64,000 nt of DNA. Source: Leptospiraceae bacterium. Its GTDB lineage: Bacteria > Spirochaetota > Leptospiria > Leptospirales > Leptonemataceae. The DNA is taken from contig JAOACE010000008.1 in assembly GCA_026418015.1 (NCBI GenBank), positions 1 through 64,000 on the forward strand. The letters run 5' to 3'. A model generated the notes under the pieces. That model made no database searches. It worked only from the letters and a program-made list of their open reading frames with translations, and had not been told where the DNA came from. Below are positions 24,429-32,000 of this stretch, piece by piece (position 1 is the stretch's first letter; every line of letters begins with the position of its first letter). The translations under genes and the position numbers were made by a program.

Positions 24429-24779
24429 ATGTTTACAACAAGACAAGAAAATGATATATTAATAATAGAAACAACTGAGCAACGTCTTGATATGGTAATT
24501 GCAAGAAAATTCAAAGATCAACTTTCGGAGGCAATAAGTAATAAACCTAAAAAAATTATTATGAATTTGGCAAAAACCAATTATTTTGATAGCTCTGTGT
24601 TAGGGGCATTGGTCTCTTTTTTAAGAGATGTAAAGGCTTATGGAGGACATTTAGTATTATGCAACCTATCGCGATCTTTATTCGCATTGTTAAAATTATC
24701 CAAATTGGATATACTTTTCGACATACGCCCCAATGTACAAGATGCAATTGAATATTTAAACCAAACACCAAAAAAATAG
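24429..24779 (+). CDS. STAS-domain anti-sigma factor antagonist-like protein
   Basis: A single STAS domain of 116 residues. The signature FDSSVLGAL at residues 53-61 contains the serine (S55/S56) that is phosphorylated by anti-sigma kinases in the SpoIIAA/RsbV family, so partner switching is likely to be possible. No anti-sigma kinase or sigma factor is adjacent; the next gene 44 nt downstream is the PilZ-GAF protein, suggesting a shared signalling role. Partner unknown. Confidence 0.88.
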   Translation: MFTTRQENDILIIETTEQRLDMVIARKFKDQLSEAISNKPKKIIMNLAKTNYFDSSVLGALVSFLRDVKAYGGHLVLCNLSRSLFALLKLSKLDILFDIRPNVQDAIEYLNQTPKK

Positions 24780-24822: not shown

Positions 24823-26154
24823 GTGGATGTATCGGTCCTTGCACAAAAAATAGAAGATGATTTAAAAAAAGAAATTTTAAGAGTTCTAAACAAAGAGAAT
24901 GAACCACCAGAGAAACATACAATATTAGGTTCGAACATAAACGAAATAAGACATATTTTTTATTATTTAAAGTCAAACAAAGTCCCCATCACTATTAATT
25001 ATTTGATAGATACTTATACTGGTTTTGTTGCAGATGTATTGGATCTTTATTGTAAAATCCACGTTGTAGGGTTCGAAGAAACCTCTTTTCGAAGGTGTAG
25101 AATTTCTTTTAATTTTTTGAATACCTATTACGAATTCGAAGTAAATCTGTATAAAGTAGAAAAGGATTATTTATACCTATATTTACCTTTGAATATCCAA
25201 TACACATCGAAAAGGAAGTATCCAAGGTTTTTCCCCGAAAATTTATATGCAAACTTAAATGTTTTGTTTAATAATCTATTTTCCGAGAAAGAATATGAAC
25301 AAATTTTTTTACAAAACTATCCAAAAATTATTCAAGAATTTCAGTCGGACTTACCAAACCTAGGAATTATTCTAAGAATTATTTTAGGAGAAATCCAAAA
25401 AATATCTCCGGATTATTATATTCACATTTTCGATAAGAGCAAAAAACAAGAAAGTTGGCACATTAAACAGATGCTTGCAATAAAAAAAACTATTTTTATC
25501 GATAATACTGATGATTTAACATCTTATTATTATCCCATCAATTCTTCTATTCTTACAAATTATGAACGATTCCATAAAAATATGTTAAAAACTCATAGCA
25601 ACGACGATGTGATTAAATTCTTCGAGAATATTCAAAATCAAGATATAAGAGAACAAAAAAATAGTTATATAATTTCTCCCATCTTTTGTTTTGATAATAT
25701 CATAGGATATATATATCTTGAAACAAGTTACATAGAAAGAAAAAGAATCTTTTTAGACGATGCAATAAAAGTAGCAATTCTTTCGAGGATTTTGAGCTAT
25801 ACTTTGAATCGAATCATCTTCTACCAATCCTATTACAAAGAATCAAAAGCACTAGTTAAAAACATCAGCCTTTCGGGAATATTGATAAAAATCAGTTCCA
25901 AAACCATTTATGATTTTTTAATCGATAATGATTTATTAAAAATAGAATTAGAAATTATGAATCAGTTACTACATTTTGAAGGAATTATTACAAGAATGTT
26001 TACTGTATCGGAAAAAGATTTTAACATAGCAATAGAATTCTATGATTATATCGATGATTCTTTTAAATTATTAGAAAATTATGTTTATTACTTACAAACA
26101 AAACAAACAAAAAAAGGGGCAGTAGCCCCAATAGCGACGGAGTTTCGCGAATGA
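24823..26154 (+). CDS. Split PilZ domain with an inserted GAF-like domain (DUF1577-like)
   Basis: The 443-residue protein starts with GTG at 24823 (an ATG two bases earlier is out of frame and soon stops). Residues ~55-125 form a YcgR-N-like beta barrel. The first c-di-GMP motif R131-KYP-R135 follows it. About 210 residues later the second PilZ motif N347-x-S349-x-x-G352 (NISLSG) appears. Between them residues ~180-335 look like a GAF domain (IISPIFCFDNIIGYIYLE, then a long helix). The whole resembles the Leptospira DUF1577 family. c-di-GMP binding is inferred from the motifs; the GAF ligand is unknown. Its last codons contain a GC-rich hairpin acting as a terminator on the other strand. Confidence 0.78.
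   Translation: MDVSVLAQKIEDDLKKEILRVLNKENEPPEKHTILGSNINEIRHIFYYLKSNKVPITINYLIDTYTGFVADVLDLYCKIHVVGFEETSFRRCRISFNFLNTYYEFEVNLYKVEKDYLYLYLPLNIQYTSKRKYPRFFPENLYANLNVLFNNLFSEKEYEQIFLQNYPKIIQEFQSDLPNLGIILRIILGEIQKISPDYYIHIFDKSKKQESWHIKQMLAIKKTIFIDNTDDLTSYYYPINSSILTNYERFHKNMLKTHSNDDVIKFFENIQNQDIREQKNSYIISPIFCFDNIIGYIYLETSYIERKRIFLDDAIKVAILSRILSYTLNRIIFYQSYYKESKALVKNISLSGILIKISSKTIYDFLIDNDLLKIELEIMNQLLHFEGIITRMFTVSEKDFNIAIEFYDYIDDSFKLLENYVYYLQTKQTKKGAVAPIATEFRE
26109..26129 (-). terminator. Terminator on the minus strand, inside the 3' end of the PilZ-GAF gene
   Basis: Read on the minus strand, a perfect 5-bp GC stem (GGGGC / GCCCC, 4-nt loop, 26116-26129) is followed by seven Ts. It lies about 90 nt past the cheX stop and is preceded by a second small inverted repeat (GCGA...TTCGC, 26134-26149). 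It would end cheX transcription after crossing the convergent gene's last codons. Confidence 0.75.
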
Positions 26155-26217
26155 TACTTATAATATCGTAGTATTCGAAAAATTCATATACAATTTTTTT
26201 TAAAATTGCTAAAATTT

Positions 26218-26700
26218 TTAGAACTTAGTATCCTTTTCTTTTAAAGTAACATCAATTTCCATCATTCCTAATTTAGAGTACATATTTAATCGAACTGTTA
26301 GACTATCAAAAGATGGGAAGGACTTTTCTTTTAAATCAATTACTTCTGGTACAGAAACCTCGATAAATTGTTGTTTATTTAAAAAAATGTTCATCGCATT
26401 ACCAGTGATCATATTCCCTACTTCGCCTAATACATCCTTGAACTCTCTTCTAAACATCTCTTCGTCGTAAGTTCCCATCAATTGTTCAAAAATCTTTTTT
26501 GCAGTATATTCTGGAAAAGCATAGAGGACTTTTCCGATTACAGAACCGTCTAATCCAATCAAAATAGCAATGTCAAACGTGCTACTGGGCGAAAATTTTG
26601 GAGTAATCTGAGTTTTGCCTCGAATCAATTTTTCTTTTAATAAATCGGTAAAAACGAGGTTAGCTGCTTCTAAAAAACAATTTATGTATTCTGCCTTCAA
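26218..26700 (-). CDS. cheX: CheX-like CheY-P phosphatase
   Basis: CheX removes the phosphoryl group from CheY in spirochaete chemotaxis. The 160-residue protein has the characteristic phosphatase helix with E93 and N96 in DVLGEVGNMITGNA, the two residues needed for catalysis in the CheC/CheX/FliY family. A single such motif and the length fit CheX. No other chemotaxis gene is adjacent. The ppiD-like gene lies 43 nt upstream on the same strand. A similar domain also occurs in other phosphatases, so the exact substrate is inferred. Confidence 0.85.
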   Translation of the reverse strand: MKAEYINCFLEAANLVFTDLLKEKLIRGKTQITPKFSPSSTFDIAILIGLDGSVIGKVLYAFPEYTAKKIFEQLMGTYDEEMFRREFKDVLGEVGNMITGNAMNIFLNKQQFIEVSVPEVIDLKEKSFPSFDSLTVRLNMYSKLGMMEIDVTLKEKDTKF

Positions 26701-26743
26701 AAACTCCCTCTCCTTTTATTTTCGACACTGTAGGAATAGAAAT

Positions 26744-27931
26744 TTACTTTCCCTTTTTTGTTAGGTCTTTAACCTGAAAATTTCCTCTTTTTCTGTATTG
26801 CTCGAGGATATGATTATAAAAAACAAAAGCCAATCTTTCTTCGAAAGATTCTTTTTTAACCTGAATTTCCTTATTATTTTCTTTTAATTTGATATTCATT
26901 AATCTTACATAGATGGTGTTTTCTTTATCTTGGATAGGACCAACAATATTTTGATTGTTTGTTAGAATGGATTTTAAAAATTCATTCTGTAAAAGGTTGA
27001 TTTTTTTATTTCCCACAACAAGAGAATCTAACTCTTTTAAATTAATAGTTTTATTAACAGCTTTTATTTTAACAAGATCTTCGATTTCTTTTAGAGTAAT
27101 GTTTGGTTTTTGGTTTATTTTCGATAACTGTTCTTTTACGTTCGAAAGAATAGCTCTTTTTTTTTCGTTTTGTAAGCTTTCTTTAATAAACTTATATCTT
27201 TCCTGATAACTGGGATATTCAGAAGTTTTATTTTCTTTATTTATGTTGGATAATTTATCTTCTTCGTATTTTTTTTGTATTTCCTCTTCGGATACATTAA
27301 CTTGAATTTGATCTAATAAATCTTGATTTGTAAAAGCAATTAATTCCAAGTTTAGTTCTATGCTATCTTTTGCAATGGATTGTAAGATGTTCCAGTCATC
27401 GTTGGAAATAGGAATTGGCCTTAACAAAAATTGATCTACCATATTGGCTTTAATAAAAGCAATTCGTTTAGAGATTGGTAAACTACTCAATTCTCTTTGG
27501 TATAATTCTTCGATAGGGATAACATCATCTTCTAGTTTACTATTTTTTTGGATTTGATAGATTTGTTGAACATAATCAGCAATTTGTTTTTCTATAGACT
27601 CCTTAGAAACATTTAAACCCAAATCATCTGCTATATCAGGTTTTACATATAAGCTTTGGACGTTTTCGAAAATGCAATTTTGTAAAAGAAAAGGAGGTAT
27701 TTCTGTCAGTCCATATCTTTGAAATTGATTTTCGCATTCATTATAGATAAACATATAATCTTTTATAAGAATTGGTTCATTGTTATAAGAACCCGCTTTT
27801 GATGATCCAGAAATCAAAGAAATAATTTCATCGATTGGTTGACTAGAAAATGTAATTGCTAACATAATCACCAACAATATAACAATCAGACCAGAACCAA
27901 TTTTTGTTAATAAATTCCAAATATTGTTCAT
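26744..27931 (-). CDS. PpiD/SurA-like membrane-anchored periplasmic chaperone without a clear parvulin domain
   Basis: The 395-residue protein has one N-terminal transmembrane helix (residues ~13-30) and then a long helical region of SurA N-terminal type (residues ~45-180), the architecture of PpiD. The region after ~200 lacks the usual parvulin peptidyl-prolyl isomerase signature, so it is probably a chaperone rather than an isomerase. AAGGT precedes the ATG. The divergent unknown membrane gene starts 54 nt away, so their promoters overlap. Confidence 0.7.
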   Translation of the reverse strand: MNNIWNLLTKIGSGLIVILLVIMLAITFSSQPIDEIISLISGSSKAGSYNNEPILIKDYMFIYNECENQFQRYGLTEIPPFLLQNCIFENVQSLYVKPDIADDLGLNVSKESIEKQIADYVQQIYQIQKNSKLEDDVIPIEELYQRELSSLPISKRIAFIKANMVDQFLLRPIPISNDDWNILQSIAKDSIELNLELIAFTNQDLLDQIQVNVSEEEIQKKYEEDKLSNINKENKTSEYPSYQERYKFIKESLQNEKKRAILSNVKEQLSKINQKPNITLKEIEDLVKIKAVNKTINLKELDSLVVGNKKINLLQNEFLKSILTNNQNIVGPIQDKENTIYVRLMNIKLKENNKEIQVKKESFEERLAFVFYNHILEQYRKRGNFQVKDLTKKGK

Positions 27932-27985
27932 TAAGTACCTTTTTTTTTGTTGTTTTTAAAATTTCAAACCGAAAATAAGAAAGAT

Positions 27986-28681
27986 ATGTATATTTTAGGT
28001 TTTCTTTTTTTATTCATCGGACTTTCTTTATTACTATATACGATATTATTATTAATCAATCCAAAACCAGAAAAAGAATCTTTTAAAGAATCAATAAATA
28101 TAGAAACTCAAAATCAAGAACTCAAACCAAAAAAAGAAATCGATGTAATAAACATTCCAACAAATCAAAATATAGAAATTCAACCAGCAACTGAAGAATC
28201 AACAAAACCAGAAAACATAGAATTAACAAAACAAAAAACATCAACATTACAATCAAAAAAAATACAAGCATCAAACTTTTCCAAACCAACTCAGCCATCA
28301 CCATCTAAACAACAAGGGGACAACAACGTAAAGAAAATTCAAGAACCAAACCTAGATTTATTTCTTACAGGATATTTATATTACGATCCCACTAGAAGTA
28401 CTTATATCCTTATAGAAAAAAGAGATAGAACTTCCAGCGAATATTTAAGCAACCTGATACGATTAGGGAATGCTACTATAGAATGGAAAGTAAATACTTT
28501 TATTATAAATTACGACGAAAACAAAATCTATTTAAATTACGAAAATTTGCAGGAAATACGTTTTAGTGATGAATGCGCAATTTTTATTCCCAAAAAAAAT
28601 AACGAACCCTATTATTATTTTTTCTCTAACCAAACCGAAGAACTAAAACAATTTCTTAAAGAATTAAGCCAATTTGTGTAA
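27986..28681 (+). CDS. Membrane-anchored protein of unknown function, upstream of the mre cluster
   Basis: The 231-residue protein has an N-terminal transmembrane helix (residues 2-22), then a long Pro/Thr/Lys/Gln-rich low-complexity linker to about residue 110, and a compact C-terminal domain of about 110 residues (FLTGYLYYDPTRSTYILIEK ... LKQFLKELSQFV). A start at 27947 would add 13 residues; the ATG at 27986 has an AAGAAAG upstream and places the helix at the N-terminus. A single-span anchor with a flexible linker is a common design for divisome or elongasome accessory proteins. No family recognised. Confidence 0.65.
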   Translation: MYILGFLFLFIGLSLLLYTILLLINPKPEKESFKESINIETQNQELKPKKEIDVINIPTNQNIEIQPATEESTKPENIELTKQKTSTLQSKKIQASNFSKPTQPSPSKQQGDNNVKKIQEPNLDLFLTGYLYYDPTRSTYILIEKRDRTSSEYLSNLIRLGNATIEWKVNTFIINYDENKIYLNYENLQEIRFSDECAIFIPKKNNEPYYYFFSNQTEELKQFLKELSQFV

Positions 28682-28724
28682 TTTTTCATTTGCATTCTAA
28701 TTTTCCTATTAATTTTTGAACTTA

Positions 28725-29741
28725 ATGCTAATTCATGTAGAAGTTTTAAAAACAAAAAAGCAAAACAAAAAAAATAAATACTTAAAATTTTTTTTTATTA
28801 TTTTAATTATTTTGGCAGCAAGTTATTTTATTTATAAAGAAAAACACAACATTTATTTATTTTTTAGATCTTTGTTTTTATCCGAAGATATAAAATTTAT
28901 ACAAACAAAAAACCAAAAAATTGAATCAGAATTAAGACGAATCCATGAACTCAACGAAGAACAATTAAAACAATTAAACAATCAAATCAACGATAATATT
29001 AATGTATTAAAATATTTAGAAAATACTTCCAACAATTTAAACAATATTTACTATTATCTCTCATTATCTTATTTTTATCGAATTTTAATCAATTTAGAAT
29101 TTTCCAAAGAACATCTAATCAAACAAATCTTAATAGGAGAACTTCCTCCAATTAGAAAAGATAAAGCACAATACGAAAAAGATATAAAAAATTTACAAAT
29201 TTATACAAAAAAATTTCTTGCAATAGACAGAGAAAATAACCAAGAAATTCAGCTTATTAATATAATTTCGGATATTTTGAATAACAAAATACTAACGAAA
29301 GCATATTACAAAAAAATCAATTCTATTAATTTTCATTCGAAAGATTTTTTAAATTTGTACTATGAATGGTTTTATTTAGTGTTAAATTCCAATTTTGGAG
29401 ATATTCAAAAAATTCAAACTTATTTTAACAATCAACCATCTTGGGAATTTCATCCCTCAGAAAAATTATTGATAGAAGCAAATACTTATTATTATAAAAA
29501 AGATTATTTTAACTTAATCCAAACATTCCAAAATTACAATACCCAAATCGACAAAAATAAAGATAAATGGGTTTATTTAGAATTTCTTCGATTGTTAACA
29601 GAAACCTATTTTTTACAAAAAAATTATCTTTTTACTCAATATTACATAAACGAAACAGAAAAAATGCTTCAAGATTATTCTGATGACTTTGTAAAAGAAA
29701 GGATTAAAAAAATTAAAGAAAAATTAAAAGCACCATATTAA
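28725..29741 (+). CDS. Membrane-anchored helical-repeat protein of unknown function
   Basis: A 338-residue protein with a basic N-terminal tail, one transmembrane helix (about residues 21-40, FFFIILIILAASYFIY) and an entirely helical remainder whose C-terminal third looks like TPR repeats (LLIEANTYYYKKDYFNLIQTF, LRLLTETYFLQKNYLFTQYY). The ATG at 28725 is preferred to a TTG three codons upstream. It is 43 nt after the previous unknown gene and 99 nt before mreB, all on one strand, so a role in envelope growth is plausible but unproven. Confidence 0.68.
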   Translation: MLIHVEVLKTKKQNKKNKYLKFFFIILIILAASYFIYKEKHNIYLFFRSLFLSEDIKFIQTKNQKIESELRRIHELNEEQLKQLNNQINDNINVLKYLENTSNNLNNIYYYLSLSYFYRILINLEFSKEHLIKQILIGELPPIRKDKAQYEKDIKNLQIYTKKFLAIDRENNQEIQLINIISDILNNKILTKAYYKKINSINFHSKDFLNLYYEWFYLVLNSNFGDIQKIQTYFNNQPSWEFHPSEKLLIEANTYYYKKDYFNLIQTFQNYNTQIDKNKDKWVYLEFLRLLTETYFLQKNYLFTQYYINETEKMLQDYSDDFVKERIKKIKEKLKAPY

Positions 29742-29840
29742 ATTTGAATAATTTTAAAAAATTCTTTCAATTTAGATTGTCTTTTTACTATGATAATTTT
29801 TTTTATCCATTTGAAAATATTTTTATAAGTCGGGTGTAAT

Positions 29841-30878
29841 ATGTTTTTCGATAAATTTTATAGTTTATTTTCCAATGATATGGGGATTGACTTAGGTACT
29901 GCAAATACCCTCGTCTATGTTAAAGGGCAAGGCATCGTTTTAAATGAACCTTCAGTAGTAGCTGTACAATCATCGACAGGAAAAGTACTCGCTGTTGGAC
30001 ACGAAGCAAAACGAATGTTAGGAAGAACTCCAGGGGACATAATGGCAATTCGTCCTATGAAAGATGGAGTTATAGCAGATTTCGAAACAGTAGAAAAAAT
30101 GATCCGTTATTTTATCCAAAAAGTACATAAAAGAACTACATTAGTAAAACCTCGATTAGTGATTGGTGTGCCATCAGGAATTACAGAAGTAGAAAAAAGA
30201 GCTGTTAGGGAATCAGCAGAGCAAGCTGGTGCCCGGGAAATTTATCTAATAGAAGAAGCTCTTGCAGCAGCTATCGGTGCAAATATTCCTATTGATGAAC
30301 CAGCTGGTACGATGATTGTAGATATCGGGGGAGGAACCACAGAAATTGCTGTTATTTCCTTAGGAGGAATGGTTATTTCTGATTCTATACGTATCGGTGG
30401 AGACGAATTGGACGAAGCGATTATTCGTTATTTAAGAACTCAATACAACTTAATTATTGGAGAAAGAACCGCAGAAGAATTAAAGTTCAAATTAGGAAAT
30501 GCTTATCCAGAAAAACACGTAGAAACGATGGAAATTAAAGGTAGAGATGCCATCAGTGGTCTTCCTAGAACATTAGAAGTAGATTCCAACGAAATACGCG
30601 AAGCTTTAAAAGAAACTGTGGATATGATCTTAGAAGCAATCAAAAATACCTTAGAAAAAACTCCGCCTGAACTTGCAGCAGATATTGTAGAAAGAGGAAT
30701 TGTTTTAAGTGGTGGTGGTTGTTTACTTAAAGGATTAGATAAATATCTAAGTAAAGAAACAGGTGTTCCTGTTTTTCGAGCAGAAAACCCACTGATTTGT
30801 GTTGCATTAGGTACAGGAAGATACTTAGAAGAAATGCATCGTATTAAAGGTTTAGATCTAATCAACAAAAGATATTAA
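29841..30878 (+). CDS. mreB: Rod-shape-determining actin homologue MreB
   Basis: MreB polymerises on the inner membrane and directs lateral wall synthesis. The 345-residue length is standard. Actin-fold nucleotide motifs are complete: phosphate-1 [11 protein letters not shown], phosphate-2 [16 protein letters not shown] and the adenosine motif [15 protein letters not shown]. It opens the cluster mreB-mreC-mreD-mrdA-rodA and is followed by mreC after 3 nt. Confidence 0.97.
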
Positions 30879-30881
30879 TCT

Positions 30882-32000
30882 ATGTTCTGGGAATATATAA
30901 GTAAATACAAAGTCCCATTTAGTTTAACTTTTTGCGTTGTTTTTTCTCTTGTCAGTATTATTTGGCAAAAAAATCCTTTTTCTCAGAGTACGATTTATTT
31001 TAACAGAATTGCAGAACAGACAAACTATTTATTTAAAAACATTTTTCAATTTCCTTTTGTAGTAATCGAAAGAATTTCTGAATATTCAGAACTAAAAGAA
31101 AAATACCAAAAATCCTTAGAAGAAATCGAAAAATATAAATTACAAAAAGAACAATACGAAATTCTTTTAAAAGAAAACCAAAAGTTAAGACAGATATTAG
31201 AATTCCCACCACTTACAAATTATCCAGAAATCAAAGCAGAAGTATTAGGAATTCGATTAAATTCTATTACACCCAGAATTATAATCAACAAAGGAAAAAA
31301 AGACGGAATTCAACCTTTTATGCCTGTAATTGCATTTACAACAGACGAAAACAATCAACCTATACGTTCAGTGGTAGGAATTACTGCTATTGTCCAGGAT
31401 TCCCATAGCATTATACAACCCATTCAACATCCACAAATGGAATTAGGGGTAAAAATCAATGTAACCAATCAATGGGCAATTTTGCAAGGAAATTCCTATT
31501 CTTTAAAAAAACTTAGACTTAAATATATTACTTATGCATCAAACAAAGACAATAAATTTTTTAGTGATCCTTACATAGAAATTAAGAATTCAAGGGTAGT
31601 TACAAGCGGCAATGATGGAATATTTCCCGAAAATATTCCCGTAGGTGTAATTGTAGAAAAAGGAAATATTGACGACAATGGTTTTGGGTATGCATATGTT
31701 ACACCCTATATCGAATTAGACAAATTAGAATTTGTTATTGTAATATTAAAAAAACCATCAAGTTGGTCTAATTTAGTTTCTGATAATGTTAAAAACGATC
31801 TTCCCTTACCTATTACTACAGAATATATTCCAGAAGAATTTCTAAATCAATACAAAAACGAAAAATCGAAAAATGAAAAACAATATATAACCCAACATCA
31901 ACAAAAACCAGACAAGACATCAGAAATAGAAAATAAAACAATAGAACAACCAAAAAAAACAAAAGAAAGAATATTTAATCCCAATGATCCTTTACAATAG
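30882..32000 (+). CDS. mreC: Rod-shape-determining protein MreC
   Basis: The 372-residue protein has one N-terminal membrane helix, a coiled coil (about residues 60-105, ELKEKYQKSLEEIEKYKLQK) and the periplasmic beta-barrel region of MreC (AEVLGIRLNSITPRIIINKGKKDGI, VTSGNDGIFPENIPVGVI). A charged, low-complexity tail of about 70 residues rich in Glu, Lys and Gln follows, longer than in many MreC proteins. MreC links MreB to the penicillin-binding protein. Confidence 0.92.
   Translation: MFWEYISKYKVPFSLTFCVVFSLVSIIWQKNPFSQSTIYFNRIAEQTNYLFKNIFQFPFVVIERISEYSELKEKYQKSLEEIEKYKLQKEQYEILLKENQKLRQILEFPPLTNYPEIKAEVLGIRLNSITPRIIINKGKKDGIQPFMPVIAFTTDENNQPIRSVVGITAIVQDSHSIIQPIQHPQMELGVKINVTNQWAILQGNSYSLKKLRLKYITYASNKDNKFFSDPYIEIKNSRVVTSGNDGIFPENIPVGVIVEKGNIDDNGFGYAYVTPYIELDKLEFVIVILKKPSSWSNLVSDNVKNDLPLPITTEYIPEEFLNQYKNEKSKNEKQYITQHQQKPDKTSEIENKTIEQPKKTKERIFNPNDPLQ

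Follow-up and report, generated by a model that had tools for sequence, protein, structure and literature searches.

The window analysed here, a 64,000-nucleotide stretch of the genome of a Leptospiraceae bacterium, contains at its positions 24823 to 26154 an open reading frame whose GTG start is the first start codon past the preceding in-frame stop. The product is a 443-residue protein in which the two halves of a c-di-GMP binding motif of the PilZ type are separated by what resembles a GAF domain. A gene for a STAS protein lies immediately upstream, and a short conserved element overlaps the 3′ end of the reading frame on the other strand. The features of the locus are as follows, in window coordinates.

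24429 to 24779, forward strand: STAS protein gene, SpoIIAA/RsbV-like and a probable operon partner (PF01740, 2.1e-17), 43 bp upstream of the GTG
24823 to 26154, forward strand: gene for the YcgR-GAZ (DUF1577) protein, PF07614, with 30 aligned orthologues
24913 to 25215, forward strand: PilZN (YcgR_N) domain, residues 31–131; the E. coli YcgR N-terminal domain (5y6h) aligns over 100 residues at 2.9 Å, Z 11.6
25201 to 25272, forward strand: first segment of the split PilZ domain, residues 127–150, with the RxxxR motif and strand 1, from the structural model and the splice test
25213 to 25227, forward strand: RxxxR motif, R131-KYP-R135, both arginines invariant in the 30 orthologues
25288 to 25839, forward strand: GAF-like (GAZ) insert, residues 156–339, from the model
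25846 to 26118, forward strand: second segment of the split PilZ domain, residues 342–432, from PF07238 (on residues 342–422), the model and the fold search
25861 to 25878, forward strand: NxSxxG motif, N347-ISLS-G352, S349 and G352 invariant in the 30 orthologues
26109 to 26155, reverse strand: conserved short element that overlaps the YcgR-GAZ gene at its 3′ end, TCATTCGYGNAACTCC unpaired, then a hairpin and a T-run

A search of 61 related genomes gave a match to this protein in 44, and the best 30 of the 44 orthologues, with 24–72% identity, were aligned. The residues named by an earlier sequence-only reading as the two motif halves (R131 and R135; N347, S349 and G352) are found exactly at those positions of the translated frame, and the separation of more than 200 residues that it had noted measures 216. 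Both motifs are present in all 30 of these best-matching sequences, and R131, R135, S349 and G352 are invariant columns, which argues that the pair is not a coincidence. The suspicion that it might be one, in a protein unrelated to PilZ, arises from the Pfam PilZ model (PF07238), which scores only 17.6 bits on the intact protein against a cut-off of 22.5 and covers only the second half (profile positions 24–101). When residues 122–152 were spliced directly to residues 338–432, the score rose above the cut-off to 26.5 bits and the match extended over profile positions 2–101. The second half alone scored 20.8 bits, a control with residues 160–190 spliced in instead gave 20.6 bits, and two other family members behaved in the same way. 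Together with the invariance of the motif residues and the structural alignments described below, these results leave a chance match as a very improbable explanation.

An AlphaFold2 model built on the 30-sequence alignment (mean pLDDT 86, pTM 0.69) places both motif halves in a single PilZ barrel, in agreement with the splice test. In the model, strands of an N-terminal barrel occupy residues 55–130, PilZ strand 1 lies at 142–147, and the helices and strands of the GAF-like unit follow at 156–339; the barrel then resumes with strands at 343–348, 352–357, 371–378, 381–396 and 399–409 and closes with a helix at 413–432. The GAF-like unit is entered from PilZ strand 1 and left through a long helix (311–339) that runs into the NxSxxG strand. 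The best matches in a fold search of the PDB were the two-domain proteins YcgR with c-di-GMP, MotI, and MrkH with c-di-GMP, aligned over about residues 30–432. Isolated PilZ barrels also span the insert (5y6g, 118 residues at 2.9 Å over 129–435; 4xrn, 104 of 108 residues at 2.3 Å over 128–427), and since a single solved barrel aligns across both halves, the model has the two motifs in the same barrel. When the PDB was searched by sequence profile with the 30-sequence alignment, no relative was found, and the link to YcgR, MotI and MrkH comes from the fold search only. YcgR of E. coli, MotI/DgrA of Bacillus subtilis and MrkH of Klebsiella pneumoniae share the PilZN-PilZ order and fold with the predicted structure, but their PilZ barrels, unlike that of the window protein, contain no inserted domain. 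For the insert itself, Pfam GAF models gave no match, whereas the predicted fold is that of a GAF domain and GAF domains align to residues 154–337 with Z scores of 10–11, as expected from the earlier proposal of a GAF-like domain.

This architecture is real, yet already known. The protein matches PF07614 (DUF1577) with 61.1 bits against a curated cut-off of 25, and its relatives score 57–162 bits; DUF1577 was not listed in the first hmmscan of the protein despite the 61-bit score in the separate PF07614 search, probably because of a speed filter in HMMER. Visnardi et al. (2025) described the family as YcgR-GAZ, with GAZ as their name for the insert, which they located between PilZ strands 1 and 2 and found in Spirochaetota only (PMC11800159). 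The window protein has the marks of this family: the PF07614 match, a GAF-like insert between PilZ strands 1 and 2, a PilZN domain, both motifs and several paralogues. The proposal made from the sequence had therefore been published before; its GAF-like insert and its single rebuilt PilZ barrel are borne out by the model and by the splice test, but it had overlooked both the PilZN domain and the published YcgR-GAZ/DUF1577 family. The closest described counterpart, LIC_11920 of Leptospira interrogans, likewise has a PilZN domain and a PilZ barrel split by a GAF-like domain after strand 1 and its RxxxR motif, retains both c-di-GMP motifs and belongs to a genome with several paralogues. It is a monomer that binds c-di-GMP with a Kd of 60–300 nM and a 2:1 stoichiometry, and binding is lost once both arginines of its RxxxR motif, R112 and R116, are replaced (PMC11800159). 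The atypical tetrameric PilZ protein XCC6012 (3RQA) also carries an insertion between barrel strands 1 and 2 (PMC11800159), but there the insert consists of long helices, and the protein is a tetramer that does not bind c-di-GMP, whereas the window protein has a GAF-like insert and keeps both motifs intact.

The genome of this bacterium encodes three DUF1577 proteins, and the copy number among 32 genomes of the class, with a completeness floor of 90%, ranges from one to six. The two paralogues are as follows, in coordinates of their own loci.

L031, 1141 to 2292, reverse strand: DUF1577 paralogue with the RxxxR and NxSxxG motifs
L033, 1384 to 2448, forward strand: DUF1577 paralogue with the RxxxR and NxSxxG motifs, at a much shorter spacing of 151 residues

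A tree of 45 sequences, rooted at its midpoint for drawing only, divides into two deep clades with support of 100/100. The window protein belongs to a clade found in families f1 to f5 of its class, and both paralogues from its own genome fall in the other; profile-profile comparison joins sequences of the two types over residues 56–419. The motifs are about 215–224 residues apart in the clade of the window protein, against mostly 182–186 (210 in one) in L031-type sequences, which makes the insert about 33 residues longer than most inserts of the other clade. The additional helices precede the GAF core: PilZ strand 1 and the first GAF strand are separated by three helices in the window protein, against one in a model of L031 (pLDDT 89). 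This longer insert is a new observation. The size and N-terminal arginines of LIC_11920 make it a probable member of the short-insert (L031-type) clade, and its monomeric state and affinity therefore need not hold for the window protein. A narrower profile scan of genome contigs matched only members of the bacterial family, such as Leptospiraceae bacterium KatS3mg129. KatS3mg is a series of hot-spring-type metagenome-assembled genomes, and as a close relative of the present homologue comes from this series, the homologue may have the stability that structural work requires.

In one alternative reading, the GAF-like insert serves for structure or docking and binds no small molecule, which leaves c-di-GMP as the sole signal; to this we give slightly less than an even chance. 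The GAZ pocket of LIC_11920 is open to solvent and has lost several pocket elements (PMC11800159), and GAZ domains have no known ligand. Against this, the insert is conserved to about the same degree as PilZN (mean 2.32 bits against 2.35, with 2.52 and 2.68 for the two PilZ pieces), and five of its residues, E172, Y235, Y282, G295 and Y326, are invariant.

The main addition made here concerns the genomic context, namely the constant pairing of YcgR-GAZ with a STAS gene within one bacterial family. Throughout family f1, every genome with an orthologue of the window gene (17 of 17, a count that includes G003 and G010, where the locus is cut by a contig end) has the STAS gene directly upstream on the same strand, and this adjacency distinguishes the f1 genes from that of LIC_11920. 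The position of this neighbour beside the receptor gene had been noted from the sequence, and its PF01740 match confirms its identity. The protein combines a STAS fold with a serine in a D-S-S/T motif, features by which it may be classed as SpoIIAA/RsbV-like, and the form DSS is present in 12 of 12 sequences; this site is the phosphoserine position in SpoIIAA and RsbV. The five f1 genomes without a YcgR-GAZ orthologue (G001, G011, G012, G013 and G020) have no strong STAS orthologue either, a joint absence for which, in draft assemblies, one missing stretch could account. We considered whether the pair is merely part of a frozen gene cluster and rejected this, as loci L054 and L056–L058 retain the pair and ppdK, CheX and mreB are absent from the 18 kb read. 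In family f3, STAS homologues with 44–47% identity are placed elsewhere in the genome. STAS is not mentioned in the main text of the paper describing YcgR-GAZ (PMC11800159), and a literature search combining STAS with PilZ, c-di-GMP and ‘anti-sigma factor antagonist’ found no paper.

The STAS protein is, we infer, the best candidate for an additional partner of YcgR-GAZ. The two could form a partner-switching module in which YcgR-GAZ reads c-di-GMP jointly with the phosphorylation state of its STAS partner, which would dock on the GAF-like domain. We put this forward tentatively, as a possibility that is rather unlikely at present and that would extend, not exclude, the explanation favoured below. 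The pairing in f1, including the loci with none of ppdK, CheX and mreB nearby, and the uniform DSS motif speak for it, and HsbA, a STAS-type antagonist in Pseudomonas, is reported to be tied to c-di-GMP through the cyclase HsbD (PMC5085249). However, pairing of genes is not contact of proteins, and no STAS gene adjoins the YcgR-GAZ orthologue at the loci read in families f2 to f5, where the receptor can evidently work without a linked STAS gene.

The region 3′ of the gene yielded a further, incidental observation, a conserved, short, terminated RNA-like element antisense to its 3′ end. The TCATTCGYGNAACTCC element with its hairpin occurs once each in 18 of the 22 f1 genomes, with a second match in G004 and G008 that has one mismatch and no hairpin; there is no match in any f2 genome, and the three matches in f3 genomes lack the hairpin. 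Matches that lack the hairpin are at most scattered and carry one mismatch. The stem sequences vary among genomes while the hairpin is kept in the eight that were folded, and upstream a CCGA box is conserved at a fixed spacing. No Rfam family matches the element, which looks like a candidate small RNA gene of about 45 nt or a constrained terminator. In most genomes it follows CheX on its 3′ side, in the same orientation, and a first reading took it for the CheX terminator; this was abandoned because in G007 it is not near CheX. In the window, the interval 26218 to 32000 holds a CheX gene in convergent orientation, followed by a SurA-like gene and by mreB/mreC, and about half of the f1 loci read keep this order alongside YcgR-GAZ.

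In the explanation we favour, and consider highly probable as a whole, the protein joins an N-terminal PilZN domain to a PilZ barrel that a GAF-like domain interrupts after strand 1, and the halves of the barrel would form one c-di-GMP site through which binding would shift PilZN against PilZ, so that the protein acts on a partner. The two motif halves would most likely come together in one site, and c-di-GMP binding is likely because the published family member binds through the same arginines (PMC11800159). Bound c-di-GMP would change the arrangement of PilZN and PilZ, as in YcgR and MotI, and the rearranged protein would then act on a partner protein. The GAF-like insert, held by the barrel at both ends, could modulate this switch or offer a docking surface; as it runs from strand 1 through helix 311–339 into the NxSxxG strand, the site could be altered by a ligand or protein that the insert binds.

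The output might be the flagellar motor or a STAS-linked pathway, and any input through the GAF-like domain is likewise putative. The flagellar brakes YcgR and MotI bind MotA or FliG and slow the motor. The host genome encodes 16 GGDEF domains and FliG, so that c-di-GMP and a flagellar motor are both available. A brake role for the window protein is an unproven suggestion from homology, and flagellar genes are rare around YcgR-GAZ genes (PMC11800159).

A sensor domain placed within a second-messenger barrel is an unusual way of combining two inputs, and with the constant STAS partner there is now a concrete candidate for what the second input to YcgR-GAZ might be. It is conceivable, if still doubtful, that within this Leptospirales family the two proteins constitute a switch with two inputs: the STAS protein, as a partner-switching phosphoprotein, would act on a c-di-GMP receptor through the receptor's GAF-like domain, and the extra helices of this clade would serve as a docking or dimer surface.
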